DNA of 27,356 nt from a virus (IMGVR_UViG_3300037504_000539:1-27356); one strand, 5' to 3'. Shown: positions 224 to 24,056, numbered from the stretch's first letter. A program made the numbers and translations. Notes: generated from the sequence alone by a model not told the origin.

Positions 224-720
224 GCCACTTTCCTCCACTTTTTTGTCTTTGCCTCTTGTATTAATTTTTGATAGCTTTCATAATACGGCGTTTCAATTAA
301 AATTATTCCAAGCTCAGCCGCCACCACGTGGGCCATTTCAATTAACAGATAGCTTTCATAAGTCGAGCAGTCGCTTTCGCTTTTCGGGACAGCGTGCCCG
401 GCTATATCCTCTATAACCGGATATTCCACGTCATCTACCGCCCGCCATTTTATGCCGCTTTTGACCGCTGTCATGCTGTTCCCGGTTGCCGAAGCTATTT
501 GCTGGCAATGGCCATGGAAATGGTTGCATTGCGAACCGGCTCCCGTACTCCGGTGGCGTGTGTTATCAATAACCGCTTTGGTTACCGTCGCCCGCCCTAG
601 TCGCTGTTCACTTTCCACATATTTTCGATACATAAAATAGTAATCGTCCGGGACGGCCAAAGACAAAATGCGCGGATCGTTGGTCTTAAGCCGTTCCGTC
701 CCGTAAATCTCTAGCTTCAA
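220..720 (-). CDS. NinB/Orf-like recombination mediator (putative), 166 aa
   Basis: I place the start at TTG 720 (KLEIYG follows), because TTGA overlaps the recombinase stop and a G-rich stretch lies just upstream. Longer readings would run back into the recombinase gene. The middle (RSTGAGSQCNHFHGHCQQIASATG) and the later segment SESDCSTYESYLLIEMAHVVAAELGI parallel, in order and spacing, the lambda NinB pattern: RSLDQN..L...L.D...Q, then ST....EF..L.......ERG. NinB/Orf binds single-stranded DNA and acts as a RecFOR-like loading factor. The HFHGHC cluster could bind metal, which is not typical. The neighbouring NinG-like gene supports the call, but the assignment rests on pattern similarity and is moderate. 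It could also be an unrelated phage protein. Confidence 0.5.
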   Translation of the reverse strand: MKLEIYGTERLKTNDPRILSLAVPDDYYFMYRKYVESEQRLGRATVTKAVIDNTRHRSTGAGSQCNHFHGHCQQIASATGNSMTAVKSGIKWRAVDDVEYPVIEDIAGHAVPKSESDCSTYESYLLIEMAHVVAAELGIILIETPYYESYQKLIQEAKTKKWRKVA

Positions 721-1790
721 AAAATAACCCCCCACTGATAATTTGCACGGAAGTTTGCCCGGTACGCCCTGGCTTCTTGTAAAAACGAAAAAGCCCTGGA
801 AACACACCGGGATAGCTTTTTTTGACTATTTTCCCGCTTTATATAATGCCTGTCCGTTGTCCGCGGATCGGCATGGTCAAGATACTCAGCGATCTCTCTA
901 AGCGTTTTCCCCTCTTTATCCATGATTGTAGCCACCCCGCGTCTAAAGCTATGCGGCGTTAGCTTGGTCCCGTGCAATCTTGCCCGCTTTTTAATCAAGT
1001 TGAAAAAATATCGGTAGGTACTCAACTTTTGATACTTGCTTTTTCTTCGCTCTTTTATCGGCACAAAAAGCGGTTCTTCCGGCCCGGCGTCTTGCCTGTA
1101 AGTCTCTAGATAATCCCGCAAAGCCTGGGCGGCGGCTTCCGGCAAATACTTGTCTTTCGTTTTTCCAAACCCTCTTTTTTTCCGAACCTTTATGTATAGC
1201 TCTCCGTCACGGTCGATCACGTCCTCAATGCAAGCTTCTTGCAAAGGGAATTGCCTTAGAGCCGTATAGGTCAAGACGTAAAAAATGGCTTTGTTTCGGA
1301 CGTTCGCCTCATCGAAATGTTTTGAGCATTCCAAGGCTTTAAAAAAGCGCTTTAACGTTTTGAGCGAAAAAGCCTCGGTCACAATCTCATCCTCAAGAGA
1401 CAAGCCTTTAACTCCGCATGAATACGGGTTCCAGTCAATCACCTTTTCTTCGCGTAAGTAATTACAAAATGTCTTGACCGTACTCAAGTAAGCGTTAATC
1501 GTCGTCGGCTTATAATGCTTGCCGTTAGATTTCCTATAACGCTTGAAATAACCAAGATACCACTGCAAAACGTTTTTATTCGCAATGTCAATCCTGCTTT
1601 TTTCCAGCCAGCTCAAAAAATGGTTGAGGGCCATACGGTTTGCATAAACGGTTTTTTCCGTCATGTGTGGCCTTGAAGCCAGGAAGTCTTCGACTGCCTC
1701 CCAAAGCCAAAATCTTGTACCGGTAAACCGTAGCTGGCTCACCCTCTTAAACTGACACCTCTCTGTTCCTTCCATGTGTGATATGACCAT
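717..1790 (-). CDS. Tyrosine recombinase (phage integrase / Xer-type)
   Basis: I chose ATG 1790, which has AGGGGG six bases upstream. A longer reading from ATG 1865 overlaps the helicase-loader stop as ATGA and would add a hydrophobic leader (MTGFLLILLVFA), unlike this family. An N-terminal SAM-like core-binding domain (LASRPHMTEKTVYANRMALNHFL) precedes the catalytic domain. Catalytic residues can be read: Arg about 179 in TALRQFPLQE, Lys in the KVRKKRGFGKTK hairpin, HSFRR (His 280, Arg 283), LDHADPRTTDRHY (His 306, Tyr 316). The usual LGH is LDH. I do not see the extra helix between motifs II and III that marks integron integrases (IntI), so it is probably the phage's own integrase or a dimer resolvase. 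It sits unusually within a replication/nin operon and no attP could be identified. Confidence 0.9.
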   Translation of the reverse strand: MVISHMEGTERCQFKRVSQLRFTGTRFWLWEAVEDFLASRPHMTEKTVYANRMALNHFLSWLEKSRIDIANKNVLQWYLGYFKRYRKSNGKHYKPTTINAYLSTVKTFCNYLREEKVIDWNPYSCGVKGLSLEDEIVTEAFSLKTLKRFFKALECSKHFDEANVRNKAIFYVLTYTALRQFPLQEACIEDVIDRDGELYIKVRKKRGFGKTKDKYLPEAAAQALRDYLETYRQDAGPEEPLFVPIKERRKSKYQKLSTYRYFFNLIKKRARLHGTKLTPHSFRRGVATIMDKEGKTLREIAEYLDHADPRTTDRHYIKRENSQKKLSRCVSRAFSFLQEARAYRANFRANYQWGVIF

Positions 1791-1861
1791 TTTGGTCCCC
1801 CTAAAATTTGTATTTGGCCCGCCGTCCATGGCGAAAACCAGCAAAATTAGCAAAAATCCCG

Positions 1862-2623
1862 TCATTTCGTCAACTCCCTATTTCCGCGCATATCAGCCGC
1901 TTTGTCTATCCGTACAATGTTGGCCTTATTACACATGCCTATAATCCTGCTCACCACGTCATCGCCCAGGGCGGCCGCCATCGTCGCCCCGCCGAAATTC
2001 CCCGTAAAACCAACCGCCTTTCCGGAAAGATAAAGCTGCTCAAAAAGCATTGACACGTAAGAAAGTTTCCAGTCCGGTAGTTTATCGGTCCTCAAGTCAT
2101 CAAGCAGCAAAAGTTTAATGCTTTGTCGCTCGATATTCTCCTCTACCTCAATCAAATATTCTTTGTCCATGTCAATACTTTGCACATACTTCCGAAACGA
2201 TATGCTCCGAACCGTGTAGCCATGTTCAATCGCTTTAAGCAATACGTGATGCGCAAGCCATGACTTCCCTATACCCACCGGGCCAAAAAGGCCAAAGCCT
2301 ATGCCGTTCTTTATGTTTTGTTTTAAGCCCTCAAGATATTTCATAACTAACGCCCACATAGGTTCAAGTTCCGGCAAGCGTTGAAAATCGGTTATAGGTT
2401 GCCGATACTTTTCGGGAATTTTCGCGGATTTGATTTCAGCCTCGATGATTGCCGCTTGCTCTTGCCGTTTTCTTTCAAGTGTTTCACAATCGCAACATGA
2501 TACTTCAAAGCGTTTTTTAAGGCCCATAGCCTCAAGATACTCATACCTGTATTGCGCTTGGCAATGCGGGCAAAATACAGCCGGCTTTTCCGTTGCTTTT
2601 TTTTCTGTGACTACGTTTAGCAT
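1862..2623 (-). CDS. DnaC/IstB-like AAA+ helicase loader, 253 aa
   Basis: The start is taken at ATG 2623 (MLNVVTEKK), with GGAG eight bases upstream; the ATG 15 bases earlier has no ribosome site. Residues 18-46 hold a Cys cluster (CPHC, then CCDC) likely to bind zinc. Walker A is GPVGIGKS (about 114-121), Walker B LLLLDDL (171-177), sensor-1 TGN (207-209), and an Arg in DVVSRI (about 226) is a candidate arginine finger. This is the DnaC/phage P-type class that loads the host replicative helicase at the origin. It follows the initiator gene directly, two bases after its stop, matching a lambda O-P order. IstB transposition helpers share the fold, but no IS element is present. Confidence 0.88.
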   Translation of the reverse strand: MLNVVTEKKATEKPAVFCPHCQAQYRYEYLEAMGLKKRFEVSCCDCETLERKRQEQAAIIEAEIKSAKIPEKYRQPITDFQRLPELEPMWALVMKYLEGLKQNIKNGIGFGLFGPVGIGKSWLAHHVLLKAIEHGYTVRSISFRKYVQSIDMDKEYLIEVEENIERQSIKLLLLDDLRTDKLPDWKLSYVSMLFEQLYLSGKAVGFTGNFGGATMAAALGDDVVSRIIGMCNKANIVRIDKAADMRGNRELTK

Positions 2624-2625
2624 TT

Positions 2626-3495
2626 TTAAAACTCCCATGCGTTAGCGCGCTGACAAACGCCTTTCTTTTTGCTTTCATTTTTGTAGCGGTCAAACTTTTT
2701 TAAAAAATATTCGATGCAATGCGCTTGATGATCTCTCGCCCAATCGTCGTCGATATATTTTTTCCAAATTTCATCCAGGTCATCATAAAGGCCGTTTAGC
2801 AAAACCTTTTCATCAAATCGCTTTTTGACAAGAGACTTTAAGGCATGAATCTTGCCAGAGTATTGCTTTCCTGAATCTTGATAAAGCTTGACAAGTTTAT
2901 TTGCTACAGCATACGCTTGACGCTCAAGCTGTTTTTTGGAATCGGGCGAAGGCTTTTTTGTATTGCGCGGCTTTTTAGGCGCGCCCTTATTATTAATTGT
3001 ATTATTCCTAGGTGTATTATTCTTTGAAGGGACATTTTTGTCACGGGGGGTAGGGACATTTTTGTCACCCCCTGGGGACATTTTTGTCACGGGGGGGCAT
3101 GACGTTTTTGTCCCCCATGATAGCCATATCTTACGACTATTTGACCACCCCTCTGCTTTGTTTTTCCGTGTTTCACATTTAATATATCCCTTGCTTTCTA
3201 GGGCCTGTATCCACCTTTTTATTGTCCTCACGTCTACTTCGTAAAGGTCCGCAAAATAGCGATTTTTGGCCCAGCAAAACCCTTTTTGATTGCAAAGAGC
3301 CGTGATCTCCCCGTATAAAAACCGGGCGCCCATGGGCAAGCTTTTATTATACCTAACCTCTGCGGGCGTTACGCTATAATACGCCGGTTTTGCGTCTTCC
3401 TCATTTCTGTAAACCCGATTTTCCCGGTGCTCTTGGTCTGTAATCTGATTAATACTCAATTTTTTATCCTCACTTCTTTTAGTTTTTCTCCGCAT
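2626..3495 (-). CDS. Phage replication initiator (O-like), winged helix, iterons inside gene
   Basis: An N-terminal helix-turn-helix/winged-helix region (about residues 40-115: YYSVTPAEVRYNKSLPMGAR..., then LYEVDVRTIKRWIQALESKGYI) resembles phage initiators and DnaD/O-type N-terminal domains. A low-complexity linker (SCPPVTKMSPGGDKNVPTPRDKNV...) is encoded by four DNA iterons. A charged C-terminal domain with Trp-rich helices follows. Organisation matches lambda O: DNA-binding domain, origin inside the gene, then the helicase loader downstream. The ATG at 3495 lacks a ribosome site and lies only three bases from the last attC box. A TTG downstream, encoding LSINQITDQ, has GAGG at good spacing and may be the true start. 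The function is inferred from architecture and context. Confidence 0.75.
   Translation of the reverse strand: MRRKTKRSEDKKLSINQITDQEHRENRVYRNEEDAKPAYYSVTPAEVRYNKSLPMGARFLYGEITALCNQKGFCWAKNRYFADLYEVDVRTIKRWIQALESKGYIKCETRKNKAEGWSNSRKIWLSWGTKTSCPPVTKMSPGGDKNVPTPRDKNVPSKNNTPRNNTINNKGAPKKPRNTKKPSPDSKKQLERQAYAVANKLVKLYQDSGKQYSGKIHALKSLVKKRFDEKVLLNGLYDDLDEIWKKYIDDDWARDHQAHCIEYFLKKFDRYKNESKKKGVCQRANAWEF
2983..3114. other. Probable replication origin (iterons plus AT-rich unwinding stretch)
   Basis: Next to the iteron block, 2985-3027 is AT-rich and contains two copies of GTATTATTC separated by CTAGGT, a plausible duplex-unwinding element. Iterons next to an AT-rich tract inside an initiator gene is the arrangement of lambdoid ori within gene O. 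The call is by analogy; no strand-switch or skew calculation was possible. Confidence 0.65.
3029..3114. repeat. Four iterons of a 16-bp imperfect palindrome
   Basis: GGGACATTTTTGTCAC occurs exactly at 3029-3044, 3053-3068 and 3075-3090. A fourth, reverse-oriented variant, ATGACGTTTTTGTCCC, lies at 3099-3114. Start-to-start spacing is 24, 22 and 24 bases, about two helical turns, so the sites face the same side of DNA. Each unit is itself a near-palindrome (GGGACA-TTTT-TGTCAC). The copies are separated by G/C-only tracts. They fall in the linker of the initiator gene, so the gene product is the obvious candidate ligand. Confidence 0.92.
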
Positions 3496-3498
3496 TTT

Positions 3499-3551
3499 GC
3501 TTAACGTTTGCGATTATACGCCGTTTTAATGTCGTATGGTTGCTGTTGTGT
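3499..3551 (-). repeat. attC-like site of cassette 6 (short type), array end
   Basis: In cassette orientation R'' is ACACAAC (3551-3545) and R' is GTTAAGC (3505-3499). The inner arms GCAACCATACGAC and CGTATAATCGC pair imperfectly around a GCCGTTTTAATG-type loop (+ strand). The site is 53 bp. This is the last attC of the array. Its R' follows GTTRRRY exactly and differs from the GTTGTRY/GTTATRY of the other five, as expected if the final TTAAGC belongs to the original target DNA. The initiator ATG follows three bases later. Confidence 0.78.
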
Positions 3552-3564
3552 GTAGTTTCAAACA

Positions 3565-3771
3565 TTACATTTTCTCTATCATTTTTTTAATTTGTGCTTG
3601 TAAACGCTTTGGCAAATCTACAACATCTCCCATAGCGTAAGCATAAAATATTCTTTCTAAATCTTTTATCTGTCTTTTTAGTTTTATAATTTCTTTTCTA
3701 TCACACTGACAAGCACAATAATCCTCTAGGAAGTAGCCACCACATTTATCACATTTCATATTTTCACCCAT
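3565..3771 (-). CDS. Cassette 6: small Cys-rich (zinc-ribbon-like) protein, 67 aa (actual count 68 at most)
   Basis: I start at ATG 3771, which has AAGGAG seven bases upstream; upstream sequence in the same frame is attC. The N-terminus carries CDKCGGYFLEDYCACQC, a CxxC...CxCxC cluster likely to bind one zinc. A Lys-rich helix (KEIIKLKRQIKDLERIF) and a basic C-terminus (LQAQIKKMIEKM) follow. The short size, own ribosome site and following attC (3499-3551) make it a typical cassette gene. I do not recognise the family; a nucleic-acid or protein-binding adaptor is possible. Confidence 0.75.
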   Translation of the reverse strand: MGENMKCDKCGGYFLEDYCACQCDRKEIIKLKRQIKDLERIFYAYAMGDVVDLPKRLQAQIKKMIEKM

Positions 3772-3798
3772 GTATATTCTCCTTATGTTTGAAATTGC

Positions 3799-3852
3799 GT
3801 ACAACGTTTGCGAAACGTACGCCGTTTTAATGGCGTGCTTTCGCTGTTGTAC
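3799..3852 (-). repeat. attC-like site of cassette 5 (short type)
   Basis: In cassette orientation R'' is GTACAAC (3852-3846) and R' is GTTGTAC (3805-3799), an exact inverted pair. The inner arms GCGAAAGCACGCC and GGCGTACGTTTCGC pair with an asymmetric spacer, A on one side and AAAC on the other. Loop GTTTTAAT is shared with the site at 3499-3551. The site is 54 bp. The asymmetric unpaired spacer and unequal arms are attC traits. The stop codon of the 66-residue cassette gene lies in its loop. Confidence 0.85.
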
Positions 3853-4027
3853 ACTGGTTAATTTTTGCGGGCAAGTTTTTATTGTATAACGATTCACCTA
3901 AAAACTGACACCCGAACGCATAAGAAGCGATAGCCTCGTTTATAAACTTTATCATTTGCTTTTTGGTTGGTATTTTACCGAACTGTTTCTTTAAACCATC
4001 ATCACTAAATTTAATTAATAATTCCAT
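3827..4027 (-). CDS. Cassette 5: hypothetical protein, 66 aa
   Basis: Start ATG 4027 (MELLIKFSDDGLKKQF) has GGGAGG four bases upstream; the ATG at 4066 would begin inside the preceding attC. The protein is a small mixed alpha/beta product with KIPTKKQMIKFINEAIASYAFGCQFLGESLYN. Its last dozen residues (NQCTTAKARH) are encoded by its attC, as commonly seen in integron cassettes. No family recognised, no signal peptide or membrane segment. Confidence 0.72.
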   Translation of the reverse strand: MELLIKFSDDGLKKQFGKIPTKKQMIKFINEAIASYAFGCQFLGESLYNKNLPAKINQCTTAKARH

Positions 4028-4050
4028 TTTGCCTCCCTTGCAATGACTGC

Positions 4051-4248
4051 ACACAACGTTTGACACTATGCTAAGGTCACGAAGTGACTTGAAGTAGTGC
4101 TATGAGCACCATATTATACGCGCCACCGCCCAAGCTGTTGATATTGACATACGACCACCCGAATGGTCTACCCTCCACACAATACGAACAAAAAGCCAAA
4201 TGGCGCGTATAATATTCATAGCACTATTTACTCCTTTTCCTGTTGTAA
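4051..4248 (-). repeat. Oversized attC-like site of cassette 4, with a 25-bp internal hairpin
   Basis: Boxes TTACAAC (4248-4242, R'') and GTTGTGT (4057-4051, R') bound a 198-bp segment, long for an attC. Inside, 4096-4105 plus 4111-4125 pair with 4216-4225 plus 4201-4215 (ATATTATACGCGCCA against TGGCGCGTATAATAT, and AGTGCTATGA against TCATAGCACT), giving 25 pairs with one five-base bulge. A second hairpin (GGTCAC-GAA-GTGAC) lies near 4076-4087. The R'-proximal arm GACACTATGC has no clean partner next to R'', so the site may be a fusion or decayed attC. A 39-codon frame inside the hairpin (ATG 4219) looks like chance. Confidence 0.6.
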
Positions 4249-4808
4249 GCTGTTTTGCCGGATTCCTTAATGTTCTGTGCGCCCAGCTCGATACTACACG
4301 GAACTTCGTTACCCCATACATCCCAACCGCCGCGCTCTTTACGAGCAAAAACATCAATCATGGGAGAACCAAAAACAGATACTATATCGTAGAACTCGTC
4401 TGGCTTTGCCGAGTGCCGTTCGGATTTTACCACAAAACAAGTCGGGATCGCTTTGCGACGGGGGTACATTTCTAACTTACCTTTGTACCCGAACAAGCAA
4501 AACTCTGTACGGTGGTGAAATCCGAAAAGGCACATTCCGTTCCGTTTATCCCACGTTAAAGTACGCTGATAGCGGAACCCCCACGCCGACATAATATCGA
4601 AACTTGACGGCAAAAAAGCGTGAGTTGTCCAGAGAAACAAAACGGAATTTTCTGCGCTTAGTGCAGAAATCGGCAAAGTCTTGATAGCATCAAGTGACAT
4701 AGTGGGGTAGTCCAAATTCTGTTTTTGGTTCGGCCTCACTTTACGCACGATCTTTTTGACAGGCCACGGCGGATCTACCACTATTGTTTTATATTTTTTG
4801 GCGCACAT
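4224..4808 (-). CDS. Cassette 4: MT-A70-type adenine DNA methyltransferase, 194 aa
   Basis: The DPPW tetrad (residues 12-15) in TIVVDPPWPVKK is the catalytic motif IV of MT-A70-family N6-adenine methyltransferases. LFLWTTHAFLPSSFDIMSAWGFRY, TLTWDKRNG and the C-terminal SVFGSPMIDVFARKERGGWDVWGNEV match the family's conserved order. At 194 residues it is full length for the phage/bacterial small type. ATG 4808 has GGAGAG nine bases upstream. Phages use such enzymes to mask restriction sites; that role is inferred. It is the largest gene in the array and the only one with a clear enzymatic function, flanked by attC-like sites 4835-4915 and 4051-4248. Confidence 0.9.
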   Translation of the reverse strand: MCAKKYKTIVVDPPWPVKKIVRKVRPNQKQNLDYPTMSLDAIKTLPISALSAENSVLFLWTTHAFLPSSFDIMSAWGFRYQRTLTWDKRNGMCLFGFHHRTEFCLFGYKGKLEMYPRRKAIPTCFVVKSERHSAKPDEFYDIVSVFGSPMIDVFARKERGGWDVWGNEVPCSIELGAQNIKESGKTAYNRKRSK

Positions 4809-4834
4809 ATAATATCGCTCTCCGGCTCAATTGC

Positions 4835-4915
4835 GTATAACGTTCGCGACTACCCGAAGTCGCGCAGCGATTTGGGCGAAGGCTTAAAGCCGAAGCCGGG
4901 TAGTCGTTGTTGTAC
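4835..4915 (-). repeat. attC-like site of cassette 3 (long type)
   Basis: R'' GTACAAC (4915-4909) and R' GTTATAC (4841-4835) bound arms CGACTACCCG and CGGGTAGTCG, a perfect 10-bp stem. Spacers are unequal: AA on the R'' side and CGAAC on the R' side. The loop (4856-4890) shares GAAGT...ATTTGGGCGAAG with the sites at 5130 and 5449. The site is 81 bp. The stop of the 85-residue gene (4850) lies inside it. Confidence 0.87.
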
Positions 4916-5107
4916 GACCGTTTGCATGTGTGCCCAATAGTACAGTGGTGTTTGATACTCTTTTTCATCGTGGACGTTTATATTCATTCTGCATTTTATG
5001 CACATAGGAATATCTATAATCCTATCTGAACCACAAACCACGTATGAAACATCAATAAGTAATCCATCCTCTAAACACCCTACACACTCTCCATTTTTAT
5101 GTATCAT
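4850..5107 (-). CDS. Cassette 3: small zinc-finger-like protein, 85 aa
   Basis: ATG 5107 follows AGGGAG at five to six bases. Two Cys pairs (ECVGCLEDG, then MCIKCRM about 25 residues later, with a further Cys in YVVCGSD) suggest a zinc ribbon of the kind in small phage HNH-like or treble-clef proteins. No HNH catalytic residues are evident. The last 18 or so residues (RLPGFGFKPSPKSLRDFG) are encoded by attC and are probably not conserved. Function unknown. Confidence 0.75.
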   Translation of the reverse strand: MIHKNGECVGCLEDGLLIDVSYVVCGSDRIIDIPMCIKCRMNINVHDEKEYQTPLYYWAHMQTVVQQRLPGFGFKPSPKSLRDFG

Positions 5108-5129
5108 AAAATCTCCCTATGCAAATGTC

Positions 5130-5209
5130 GTACAACGTCCACGGCTATACGAAGTTGGCGAAGCCAATTTGGGCGAAGCGTTAGCGTAGCCGTATAGCCG
5201 TTGTTGTGT
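5130..5209 (-). repeat. attC-like site of cassette 2 (long type)
   Basis: R'' ACACAAC (5209-5203) and R' GTTGTAC (5136-5130) bound an 11-bp stem, ACGGCTATACG against CGTATAGCCGT. Spacers are A and GGAC. The loop holds nested GCGAAGC/GCTTCGC segments and the GAAGTTGGCGAAGCCAATTTGGGCGAAGC signature of the long subfamily. Size 80 bp. The site starts nine bases after the stop of the 58-residue gene. Confidence 0.87.
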
Positions 5210-5217
5210 GATGTAAA

Positions 5218-5394
5218 TCACCGTTCCGCCTGTTCTTTGGCGGGCGGGGTGTTACGATGTCGCCCCTTAGCAATCTTATGTATACGACATACCCACGAAT
5301 GCCCCGTGTCGAGTTCTGGCTGCCAGTTATCAAGGTCGCAGCAACAACGCACGCCTTCGCTTTTTACCTGTTCAACAATTTCACGTAAAGTCAC
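5218..5394 (-). CDS. Cassette 2: short protein with Cys triplet, 58 aa
   Basis: This frame opens at GTG 5394 with a perfect GGAGG six bases upstream and ends at TGA 5218-5220, nine bases before the attC. It reads MTLREIVEQVKSEGVRCCCDLDNWQPELDTGHSWVC..., with a CCC triplet and a further Cys plus His residues that may bind metal, then a basic tail. It is short enough to be missed by length cut-offs. The position of cassette boundaries and the strong ribosome site make it a likely real gene. A palindrome (TGTCAA-N7-TTGACA, about 5416-5434) sits just upstream. No family recognised. Confidence 0.65.
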   Translation of the reverse strand: MTLREIVEQVKSEGVRCCCDLDNWQPELDTGHSWVCRIHKIAKGRHRNTPPAKEQAER

Positions 5395-5448
5395 AATTAG
5401 CCTCCATGGTTAGCCTGTCAACTATAAATTGACAAGGTGATTTATTTC

Positions 5449-5611
5449 ATACAACGTTTGCGACTATGAGAAGTTGCCGAGTTTTTTCAAAGACTCATAA
5501 AATGTCATCAAACATATTTCTTTTTTATCTGCCACCATTTTATATATAACATCATTAAAACTCGGCAATTTGGGTGGGGCCGGAGGCGGAACCGCATAGT
5601 CGCTGTTGTCG
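5449..5611 (-). repeat. attC-like site of cassette 1 (long type, expanded loop)
   Basis: R'' CGACAAC (5611-5605) and R' GTTGTAT (5455-5449) bound a perfect stem GCGACTATG/CATAGTCGC with spacers A and AAAC. The loop is expanded to give a 163-bp site, with an inner stem TTGCCGAG/CTCGGCAA (5473-5480 with 5565-5572). Outside the expansion it keeps the GAAGTTG...AATTTGGG signature of the sites at 4835 and 5130. Confidence 0.82.
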
Positions 5612-5760
5612 GATCGTTCAAACTGTTTTTTATAATCAGACAATAGCTCAGTAACTTTGAGTCTATCCCATCTCATCGCATGAGGGTAAAATGGATTGTT
5701 TACCTTCTCCCATTCTTGTAAATATTCTTGCACGTCATATATTATTGTACTTTCAGTCAT
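5464..5760 (-). CDS. Cassette 1: hypothetical protein, 98 aa
   Basis: ATG 5760 (MTESTIIYDVQEYLQEW) has AAGGAG six bases upstream; a longer reading would start in the cassette boundary. The first half is acidic-aromatic (QEYLQEWEKVNNPFYPHAMRWDRLKVTELLSDY). The second half, from RSDNSDYAVPPPAPPKLP on, is encoded by the attC with its expanded loop, so the C-terminal 49 residues may be an addition. The Pro-rich stretch is simply attC stem read in frame. No family recognised. Confidence 0.68.
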   Translation of the reverse strand: MTESTIIYDVQEYLQEWEKVNNPFYPHAMRWDRLKVTELLSDYKKQFERSDNSDYAVPPPAPPKLPSFNDVIYKMVADKKEICLMTFYESLKKLGNFS

Positions 5761-5805
5761 TTTATTCTCCTTAAAGTTTGAATGTCCGACAACTATATAC
5801 ATTCC

Positions 5806-5834
5806 GAATTAAAATCGGGCCTTTAGCAGGCCCG
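5806..5834 (-). terminator. Rho-independent terminator of the early operon
   Basis: CGGGCCT (reading minus 5834-5828) pairs with AGGCCCG (5822-5816) around a five-base loop and is followed by ATTTTAATT. It begins five bases after the stop of the 86-residue gene and just before the cassette array, separating the recombination operon from the array and replication genes. Confidence 0.8.
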
Positions 5835-5838
5835 AAGC

Positions 5839-6099: not shown

Positions 6100-6347
6100 T
6101 TTTCATTCTCCCTTTCTAAAATAATGCCCATCAGCTCTTTTTCGTGCGCGCTTGACAGGTATGAAGTTATGTTTCGGCGGCGCCCTTTGCGAAATACGTA
6201 CGCGGCTGTAATCTCAAAATACGGCTTGTCGTACTCAAACGACTTATACCACCACCACCAAACCTCAAGATAGTGTCCGTCGATCTCAATATATTCAGGT
6301 GCTCCGTCCTCATTTTCAAAATCAAAGTCTTTTTCTTTAATTGTCAT
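6084..6347 (-). CDS. Hypothetical early phage protein with WWWW run, 87 aa
   Basis: Start overlaps the nuclease stop as ATGA, so translation is coupled. The N-terminus is very acidic (KEKDFDFENEDGAPEYIEIDG), followed by HYLEVWWWWYKSFEYDKPYFEITAAYVFRKGRRRN. Four consecutive tryptophans are rare and may form a stacking surface for nucleic acid or protein binding. Small acidic proteins next to phage exonucleases sometimes act as partners or inhibitors of host nucleases, but nothing here proves that. Confidence 0.7.
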   Translation of the reverse strand: MTIKEKDFDFENEDGAPEYIEIDGHYLEVWWWWYKSFEYDKPYFEITAAYVFRKGRRRNITSYLSSAHEKELMGIILERENEKCLAV

Positions 6348-7291
6348 AGCTGAAACCTTCCTTTTATGTCATAACCAACAAAAGCGCCCTCTATAGTCTC
6401 GCCCTCATACTGCTTATAATGTTCTTTTACTTTTGCTTTTAGCTGCTTTGCCTTATGATCGAGTAGACGGGCCTCTTTGACCACGCTCTTAATGTCTTCA
6501 CGTTCCAAGCTTTCATAGGCCGGACATTTTCCGGCATTCAGTATCGGGCATCCGCCATACTCAAAACACTGTTCGCAAGGCGTTGGTTGATCGTAGGCCT
6601 CTTCCGGGCTGTTGATTATCCTATCCCACTGCCGCATTAAAAAGGCTTCTATTGCTTCGTGTTCCTTTTCAAGCATTTTGACGGCCTGTTTTTCCCCTGG
6701 GCACTCAAGGTTCCATGGAAGTATAAAAATTGTTGGGGATACATAGTCAAAACCAGGACAAAGCTTGACCGCCGCCCACATATACAATCTCATTTGCTGC
6801 ATTTCGCCAACCTGTTTTTCGGACAACTTGTTGCGCTGACTCTTGAAGTCCCAAACGTCTAGCAATGTCCCATCTGCAGTGGCATCAATCAAAATCAAAT
6901 CCGGCTTGACCACCACTTTTATTTCCTTGCCGTTTTGATCTTTCCCTAAACTTATCGTTGACTCTTTTTCTACCGCAAAAATTTTGTCAATCGGTACGGG
7001 CCTTTCGGCAAACTTCATTACATTTTCATAGGCTGGAACAAAAGAATTTTCTGGCAAGCCTGATCCATCAAAGCACCCCTCGAAAATCGAGCGCATGGCG
7101 CCGGGATCCGTTTCAACCCCGGCGTTCATGCAATGATTTATGTAAACTTCTCTAACCTGGTGGTGAAAGCGCCCCTCAAGCATAGGCAGGTTTTCCGCCT
7201 TAAACTCTTTGTCGCTATAAACACGCTTGTAATAATAGAGGCACCGGGCCGCCTGAATTTGACTATGCGAAATATGGTCTTTACGATCCAT
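6344..7291 (-). CDS. Cas4/RecB-like PD-(D/E)XK exonuclease with Fe-S cysteines, 315 aa
   Basis: Nuclease motifs can be read in order: GRFHHQVRE (His 44, Glu 48), KPDLILID (Asp 131), WDFKSQ (Asp 148, Lys 150) and QMRLY (Gln 166, Tyr 170). Cys 17 together with C239-x2-C242-x5-C248 gives the one-plus-three cysteine pattern that holds a 4Fe-4S cluster in Cas4 and AddB-type nucleases. In phages such enzymes resect double-strand ends to feed a single-strand annealing protein, and the annealing-protein candidate lies directly upstream with an 11-base overlap. No CRISPR array or Cas1 is present, so a CRISPR role is not supported. Confident for family, inferred for role. Confidence 0.88.
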   Translation of the reverse strand: MDRKDHISHSQIQAARCLYYYKRVYSDKEFKAENLPMLEGRFHHQVREVYINHCMNAGVETDPGAMRSIFEGCFDGSGLPENSFVPAYENVMKFAERPVPIDKIFAVEKESTISLGKDQNGKEIKVVVKPDLILIDATADGTLLDVWDFKSQRNKLSEKQVGEMQQMRLYMWAAVKLCPGFDYVSPTIFILPWNLECPGEKQAVKMLEKEHEAIEAFLMRQWDRIINSPEEAYDQPTPCEQCFEYGGCPILNAGKCPAYESLEREDIKSVVKEARLLDHKAKQLKAKVKEHYKQYEGETIEGAFVGYDIKGRFQL

Positions 7292-23648: not shown

Positions 23649-24056
23649 TTACAGCCAGCCGCTTTCAATGTTGCCAATCAAAACAACTTCCGTCGATCCT
23701 TCCTCTTGCTCAAGATTAGGCTCGATCCAGTTTTGAAACATGGCCCCGTCAGTAACGGCGGTAAAATTCACATCCCCACCGCCCTTCATCATTGCCGGAA
23801 TCGTGGCACCGGACGACATTTGCGTTTTATGCAAACCCGCCAAAAAGGCTAAGTCCGCCTTGTTAGTGTTCTTGATCGAAAACGTGATAGTCCCGGATTT
23901 GTCAGGGCTAAGAGTAAACGAAATCTCCCCCGCCATTCCTATTTTATGGGAAACAGCGTCATTCGAACGTTCAACATTTATACCGGCCTCAACATCAATA
24001 CCGGATAAGATTTTACCGCCCACCATCAATTGATTATTTTTTGGATCGTAAAACAT
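23649..24056 (-). CDS. Tail tube protein (DUF3277-like), 135 aa
   Basis: MFYDPKNNQLMVGGKILSGIDVEAGINVERSNDAVSHKIGMAGEISFTLSPDKSGTITF resembles the DUF3277 tube family. It starts with a Y-DPxx-N motif and a beta-rich core, followed by GATIPAMMKGGGDVNFTAVTDG. The gene directly follows the sheath, as in other contractile phages. Its hexamers stack to form the inner tube. Confidence 0.75.
   Translation of the reverse strand: MFYDPKNNQLMVGGKILSGIDVEAGINVERSNDAVSHKIGMAGEISFTLSPDKSGTITFSIKNTNKADLAFLAGLHKTQMSSGATIPAMMKGGGDVNFTAVTDGAMFQNWIEPNLEQEEGSTEVVLIGNIESGWL

Follow-up and report, generated by a model that had tools for sequence, protein, structure and literature searches.

Clusters of attC sites lacking integron integrases (CALINs) occur in temperate and virulent phages, where methyltransferase cassettes have been reported and five of six tested attC sites recombined with IntI1 (Qi et al. 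2023, PMC9892861). Here, we describe an array of six one-gene cassettes in the viral record IMGVR_UViG_3300037504_000539:1-27356 (hereafter the window, 27,356 bases, possibly incomplete), in which five cassettes are followed by an intact attC site. As in the phage-borne CALINs described previously, a cluster of attC sites without an integrase lies inside a phage, carries a methyltransferase cassette and keeps a single orientation, as some of those clusters do; for the earlier clusters, recognition of phage attC sites by an integron integrase provided in trans has been reported. The present array differs from them in holding six cassettes, with five intact sites whose class is linked to the short-integrase integrons of the Patescibacteria type and is common to several unrelated viral contigs. 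The first-pass annotation of this stretch had regarded cassette arrays as bacterial chromosomal or plasmid structures, a view that is out of date given the integrase-less clusters already known from phages (PMC9892861). What is new is a strong case of a distinct attC class, which also occurs in at least ten further viral contigs and roughly 11% of 380 sampled Patescibacteria genomes, and turns phage-borne arrays from rare curiosities into a recurring feature of one attC class.

The sedentary chromosomal integrons of Vibrio and Xanthomonas also consist of one-gene cassettes, with an attC site behind each gene and one attC type reused with different genes. Unlike them, the array described here is located in a phage, has neither intI nor attI, and its sites possess a nearly perfect inner stem, devoid of any extrahelical base in four of the five. 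Archaeal integrons (Ghaly et al. 2022, PMC9668308) offer a parallel on the bacterial side of our data, being found outside the classical host range and relying on a clade-specific integrase; the archaeal IntIs retain the IntI-specific domain, whereas the patescibacterial recombinases described below do not have it. Phages that exploit Xer recombinases, such as CTXphi (PMC4792948), resemble the arrangement proposed here in that a host recombinase without the IntI-specific (I2) insertion acts on a folded stem without extrahelical bases, but they integrate as whole phages, whereas the window holds single-gene cassettes inside a phage. The pairing of an integrase without I2 and a stem without extrahelical bases, which also characterises the integron class described below, was noted for Xer and CTXphi and suggested as an ancestral state of integrons (PMC4792948).

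An integrase-less cassette array inside a tailed phage

The window belongs to a genuine tailed phage with a contractile tail. Searches against PHROGs identified tail sheath, tape measure, baseplate, collar and endolysin proteins, together with an integrase and a DnaC-like loader. Nearly all genes are on the minus strand, and genes for structural and replication proteins of the phage lie to either side of the array. The array sits between the terminator of a small phage operon and a replication gene (Table 1), as had been annotated. Each of the six cassette genes, all on the minus strand, is preceded by a Shine-Dalgarno-like sequence, in agreement with the initial description of six small genes in one orientation, each with its own ribosome site. 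A lone G^TTGTCGG (5785-5793) opens the array and G^TTAAGC (3499-3505) closes it, so that both borders coincide with crossover points. The five intact sites lie within 2.1 kb, all on the plus strand, with one gene per site, borders at G^TT and one of the six sites damaged, which makes the locus a CALIN. It is not a complete integron: no integron integrase was found in this possibly incomplete record, no intI with the IntI-specific domain, and no attI, either adjoining the array or elsewhere in the window. The sole recombinase present, a tyrosine integrase of the phage located about 1.6 kb beyond the array, scored 21.9 bits with TIGR02249, against a cut-off of 265. In a tree, it was separated from integron integrases by a branch length of 10, with at most 23% identity. 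Judged by its sequence, it is not an integron integrase, and the annotation of a cassette array in a phage without such an enzyme thus stands.

The sites, numbered S1 to S6, belong to a class with ACAAC/GTTGT outer boxes, an asymmetric GTTT/T spacer and a nearly perfect inner stem of 9-10 bp. In gene orientation, every palindrome ends in ..AAAC-G^TTRTRY or near it, which is the cut point of integron integrases. Complementary R''/R' boxes ending in AAC/GTT are present at the window sites, along with paired L boxes and an unpaired spacer. When the bottom strand is folded, three to four bases (GTTT) remain unpaired on one side and none or one on the other, so the asymmetric spacers seen at first pass are real. 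Extrahelical bases, a usual feature of the attC sites studied so far though not part of every definition, are absent from the inner stem of S1, S4, S5 and S6, while S2 has one. The bottom strand is clearly better folded than the top strand at S2 (-16.2 versus -11.5 kcal/mol), S4 (-20.0 versus -15.0 kcal/mol) and S5; at S6, for which the bottom strand alone was folded, the fold has a z value of -4.1. An architecture scan, with outer boxes pairing at 6/7, inner arms at 8.5/9 and spacers of exactly 4 and 1, retrieved four sites in 3490-5800 and none in the rest of the window (S6 exceeds the length limit used), versus a mean of 0.023 and a maximum of one in 300 dinucleotide shuffles.

We also searched both strands with attC covariance models, as the first-pass annotation had proposed. 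The first model, R1, was built from 26 attC sites outside the window. Some of these had been retrieved using a pattern derived from the window itself, and we therefore constructed a second model, R2, free of phage sequence, from 43 sites that R1 had located next to bacterial recombinase genes. Under R1, the five intact sites scored 40-66 bits, whereas their opposite strand reached no more than 17 bits and the best match elsewhere in the window 10.6 bits. With R2, they scored 27-59 bits, the opposite strand at most 11 bits (S5) and the best match elsewhere 7.7 bits. Both models therefore match exactly the five intact sites, on the expected strand only. An Rfam scan gave no family match.

The claim that an attC-like palindrome follows every gene holds for these five and fails for the sixth site, S3, which follows the methylase gene and was detected by neither model. 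Phage G014 has an MT-A70 gene (38% identical) with an attC-type site immediately behind it that uses the same ACAGCTTACAACA box; by this comparison, S3 is probably a broken attC rather than a missing one. A 25-bp inverted repeat with a centre of about 85 nt (4094-4232), possibly a small inserted element, lies inside the damaged site.

A site class shared with other phages and Patescibacteria

Ten other viral contigs with this attC class were retrieved by searches with exact patterns. Phage G003 (39 kb), which encodes portal and terminase proteins, contains more than ten sites. S5 is 97% identical over 76 nt (blastn) to its positions 23921-24000, where the site is attached to a different open reading frame (ORF), and S6 is 71% identical over 183 nt to another of its sites. 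The protein of cassette 1 also matched G003 (50% over 60 aa), but this match is the attC translated in frame and not a shared gene. Beyond this, the comparison gave no match between G003 and any protein of the window, which implies that attC cassettes, and not phage genomes, are shared. Tyrosine recombinase genes are absent from nine other viral contigs with attC sites. Cassette genes with a function include those for adenine methylases in the window and in G014, for a different methylase, of the N6/N4 type, in G001 and, in G003, for a protein resembling PAPS reductase, in line with what is reported for other phage cassettes (PMC9892861). MT-A70 genes are widespread in phages at large.

The exact pattern occurred in seven stretches among 84,980 genomes, where by our own estimate chance alone would give about four. 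High-scoring sites came from Candidatus Kerfeldbacteria, Falkowbacteria and one 1.2-Mb bacterium, while four of the seven (L010, L011, L013 and L016) were discarded as lone and weak matches (24-32 bits), their number being near chance. R1 matched 43 of 380 sampled Patescibacteria genomes, as opposed to 5 of 247 and 7 of 249 genomes in two control phyla, whose genomes are roughly threefold larger. Window sites are themselves similar to patescibacterial ones: S5 is 83% identical over 65 nt to an integron in G326, and S1 is 84% identical over 50 nt to a site in G390. Single attC-class matches with the patescibacterial loop signature were also observed in Bacteroidota and Bacillota_A (L069, L070 and L075), where they may reflect transfer or a binning error.

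In the Kerfeldbacteria contig (L044:133-3772), four attC-bearing cassettes are arranged divergently beside the gene for a 275-aa tyrosine recombinase (L044:2945-3769). Recombinases related to it, of the P0001 type, were present in 50 of the 380 genomes, including 27 of the 43 with attC matches (Fisher p 6e-17). In 17 genomes, the recombinase gene is on the same contig as the array, at a distance of 0.1-5 kb and always in the divergent layout (loci including L077-L096), and the arrays at most recombinase loci were confirmed by the model. Twenty of these short, XerA-like recombinases were aligned with IntI1: all catalytic residues are present, as is the terminal SPL, but the I2 insertion characteristic of integron integrases is lacking, likewise in comparison with IntI4. 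Most of the recombinase genes are adjoined by a conserved TTCGCATAAAAACGAG^TT (e.g. L044:2835, L091:1517, L084:1865 and L077:1989), which is probably their attI. Together, recombinases and arrays seem to form an integron family whose integrase is minimal, pointing to integrons that searches requiring the IntI-specific domain would classify as orphan clusters. We found no report of patescibacterial integrons in the open-licence papers covered, and priority is not claimed.

That the phage sites match a little-noticed integron type, occurring mainly in the tiny Patescibacteria, suggests that phages help cassettes move. On balance, we lean towards the view that Patescibacteria hold a widespread class of integrons, defined by a minimal Xer-like integrase without I2, attC sites with a near-perfect inner stem and a conserved attI, and that unrelated phages draw on this common pool, carrying cassettes, counter-restriction methylases among them, from one such host to another. 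If true, an integron integrase that lacks I2 and uses attC sites devoid of extrahelical bases would come close to the intermediate proposed for how integrons arose from Xer recombinases and phages (PMC4792948), and that proposal would become testable.

Three further loci were recorded. Phage G013 has an identical ACAAAGTACTGATAAAAACAAG^TTGT at both borders of its array (L039:85 and L039:2893), similar to the bacterial attI, which is perhaps a phage-borne insertion site. The patescibacterium G158 encodes a 321-aa recombinase (L101, G158:C5:2342-3304) that, unlike the short ones, has a longer insertion at the I2 position, near patch III. A recombinase gene on a Paraburkholderia plasmid (L098:2465-4528), whose product is 39% identical to the short integrase, adjoins an IS91 transposase gene.

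How the array may have been built

The phage carries this CALIN in a probably permissive slot between the operon terminator and the replication gene, where a short-type host integrase acting in trans is likely to have built it and probably still exchanges its cassettes. During infection or lysogeny, each attC would fold on its bottom strand. While the phage DNA is in a single-stranded or supercoiled state, the host enzyme would bind the folded site and cut its outer box at G^TT, as read on the gene strand, removing cassettes or adding others from the host pool. The phage could thereby gain small accessory genes, such as DNA methylases that may protect its DNA, and the slot past the terminator would tolerate these changes. 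Once emptied, the slot is predicted to read AATTCGGAATGTATATAGTTAAGCAAAATGCGG on the gene strand. A host integrase in trans had been suggested at first pass and appears to be the best explanation, given that tyrosine recombinase genes are missing from nine other attC-bearing viral contigs and that the site class occurs beside dedicated integrases in bacteria.

Several observations weigh against this scenario. One of the six array sites is damaged (S3), and the DNA fold of S1 is no better than that of shuffled sequences and does not distinguish the strands. The match of cassette starts to their own R'' boxes is weakly above permutation (56/720), and covariation counts are inflated because the R1 sites were chosen partly for pairing. 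A motif scan did not find the patescibacterial attI motif at the array border (5785-5793), and no sister phage with an empty or rearranged slot was found. Regarding the host, the closest named relatives of the replication and baseplate proteins are largely those of Bacillota phages; the baseplate protein gave one weak match in 333 Patescibacteria genomes, and Patescibacteria as the host are thus not supported by it. The window contains no tRNA for host assignment. INPHARED contains no near-identical phages, and searches of viral contigs with the sheath, the baseplate and the 6344-7291 protein yielded no relatives, leaving distant replication-protein relatives without attC sites.

The damaged S3 and the upstream border without attI would also fit dead cargo, an array acquired in a single event of homologous or illegitimate recombination with a host integron whose cassettes have stayed unchanged in the phage ever since. 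Illegitimate routes have been proposed for some phage CALINs (PMC9892861). However, both array ends lie exactly on G^TT crossover points, five sites are intact, and exchange in the recent past is suggested by the 97% identical attC that an unrelated phage carries with another ORF, so we regard dead cargo as unlikely. Its proximity to the array, and its being the only recombinase in the window, would make the phage tyrosine recombinase (717-1865) a candidate for moving the cassettes, in which case the phage would carry a self-sufficient integron. Its distance from all integron integrases makes it an unlikely agent; it also scores far under the integron cut-off, two replication genes lie between it and the array, and nine other attC-bearing viral contigs have no such enzyme, making this a very improbable explanation.

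We give still less credence to an assembly chimaera of a bacterial integron and phage DNA. The record is of the metagenomic type, in a single copy and with no close relative, as a chimaera might be, but phage genes occur on both sides of the array in one orientation and other viral contigs show this arrangement too. Finally, hairpins between small genes are frequent in phages, but an ordinary phage operon whose terminator or processing hairpins merely resemble attC is the least probable explanation of all, since S1, S2, S4 and S5 have no terminator-like T-tracts, several hairpins lie within coding sequence, the outer boxes are conserved and the 4/1 spacers fixed, R2 finds the sites from bacterial integron sites alone, and control phages with related replication genes (L002-L005) gave no attC model match.

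Features of the window

Table 1. Coordinates of the cassette array, its attC sites and the neighbouring phage features in the window
Feature	Position	Strand	Description
Whole cassette array	3505-5792	-	six one-gene cassettes between G^TT crossover points; delimited by R' boxes, half-site 5785-5793 and models R1/R2
Upstream border half-site	5785-5793	-	G^TTGTCGGA; joins cassette 1 to phage DNA (TTCGGAATGTATATAG^TT)
Cassette 1	5455-5792	-	ORF 5464-5760, 98 aa, no family match
Cassette 2	5136-5454	-	ORF 5218-5394, 58 aa, GTG start
Cassette 3	4841-5135	-	ORF 4850-5107, 85 aa, reads through its own attC
Cassette 4	4057-4840	-	ORF 4224-4808, 194 aa, MT-A70 adenine methyltransferase; PF05063 87.9 bits
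Cassette 5	3805-4056	-	ORF 3827-4027, 66 aa, stops within its own attC
Cassette 6	3505-3804	-	ORF 3565-3771, 68 aa, Cys-rich, zinc-ribbon-like
attC S1, downstream border	3499-3551	+	40.0 bits R1, 29.1 bits R2
attC S2	3799-3852	+	44.0 bits R1, 26.9 bits R2
S3, damaged attC of cassette 4	4051-4248	+	outer R boxes and inner L' arm present, L'' arm gone
attC S4	4835-4915	+	60.7 bits R1, 56.0 bits R2
attC S5	5130-5209	+	66.3 bits R1, 58.9 bits R2
attC S6, bottom strand on +	5449-5611	+	163 nt, long terminal loop; 47.7 bits R1, 42.4 bits R2
Intrinsic terminator of the phage operon that immediately precedes the array	5815-5835	-	
Replication-initiation protein HTH_36, first phage gene past the array	2626-3495	-	
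Phage tyrosine integrase	717-1865	-	phrog_1; TIGR02249 21.9 bits, cut-off 265

The start of cassette 3 is the exact complement of its own R'' box. In cassettes 1, 3 and 5, the ORFs enter or cross the attC, which supplies the code for the C-terminal tail of their proteins.

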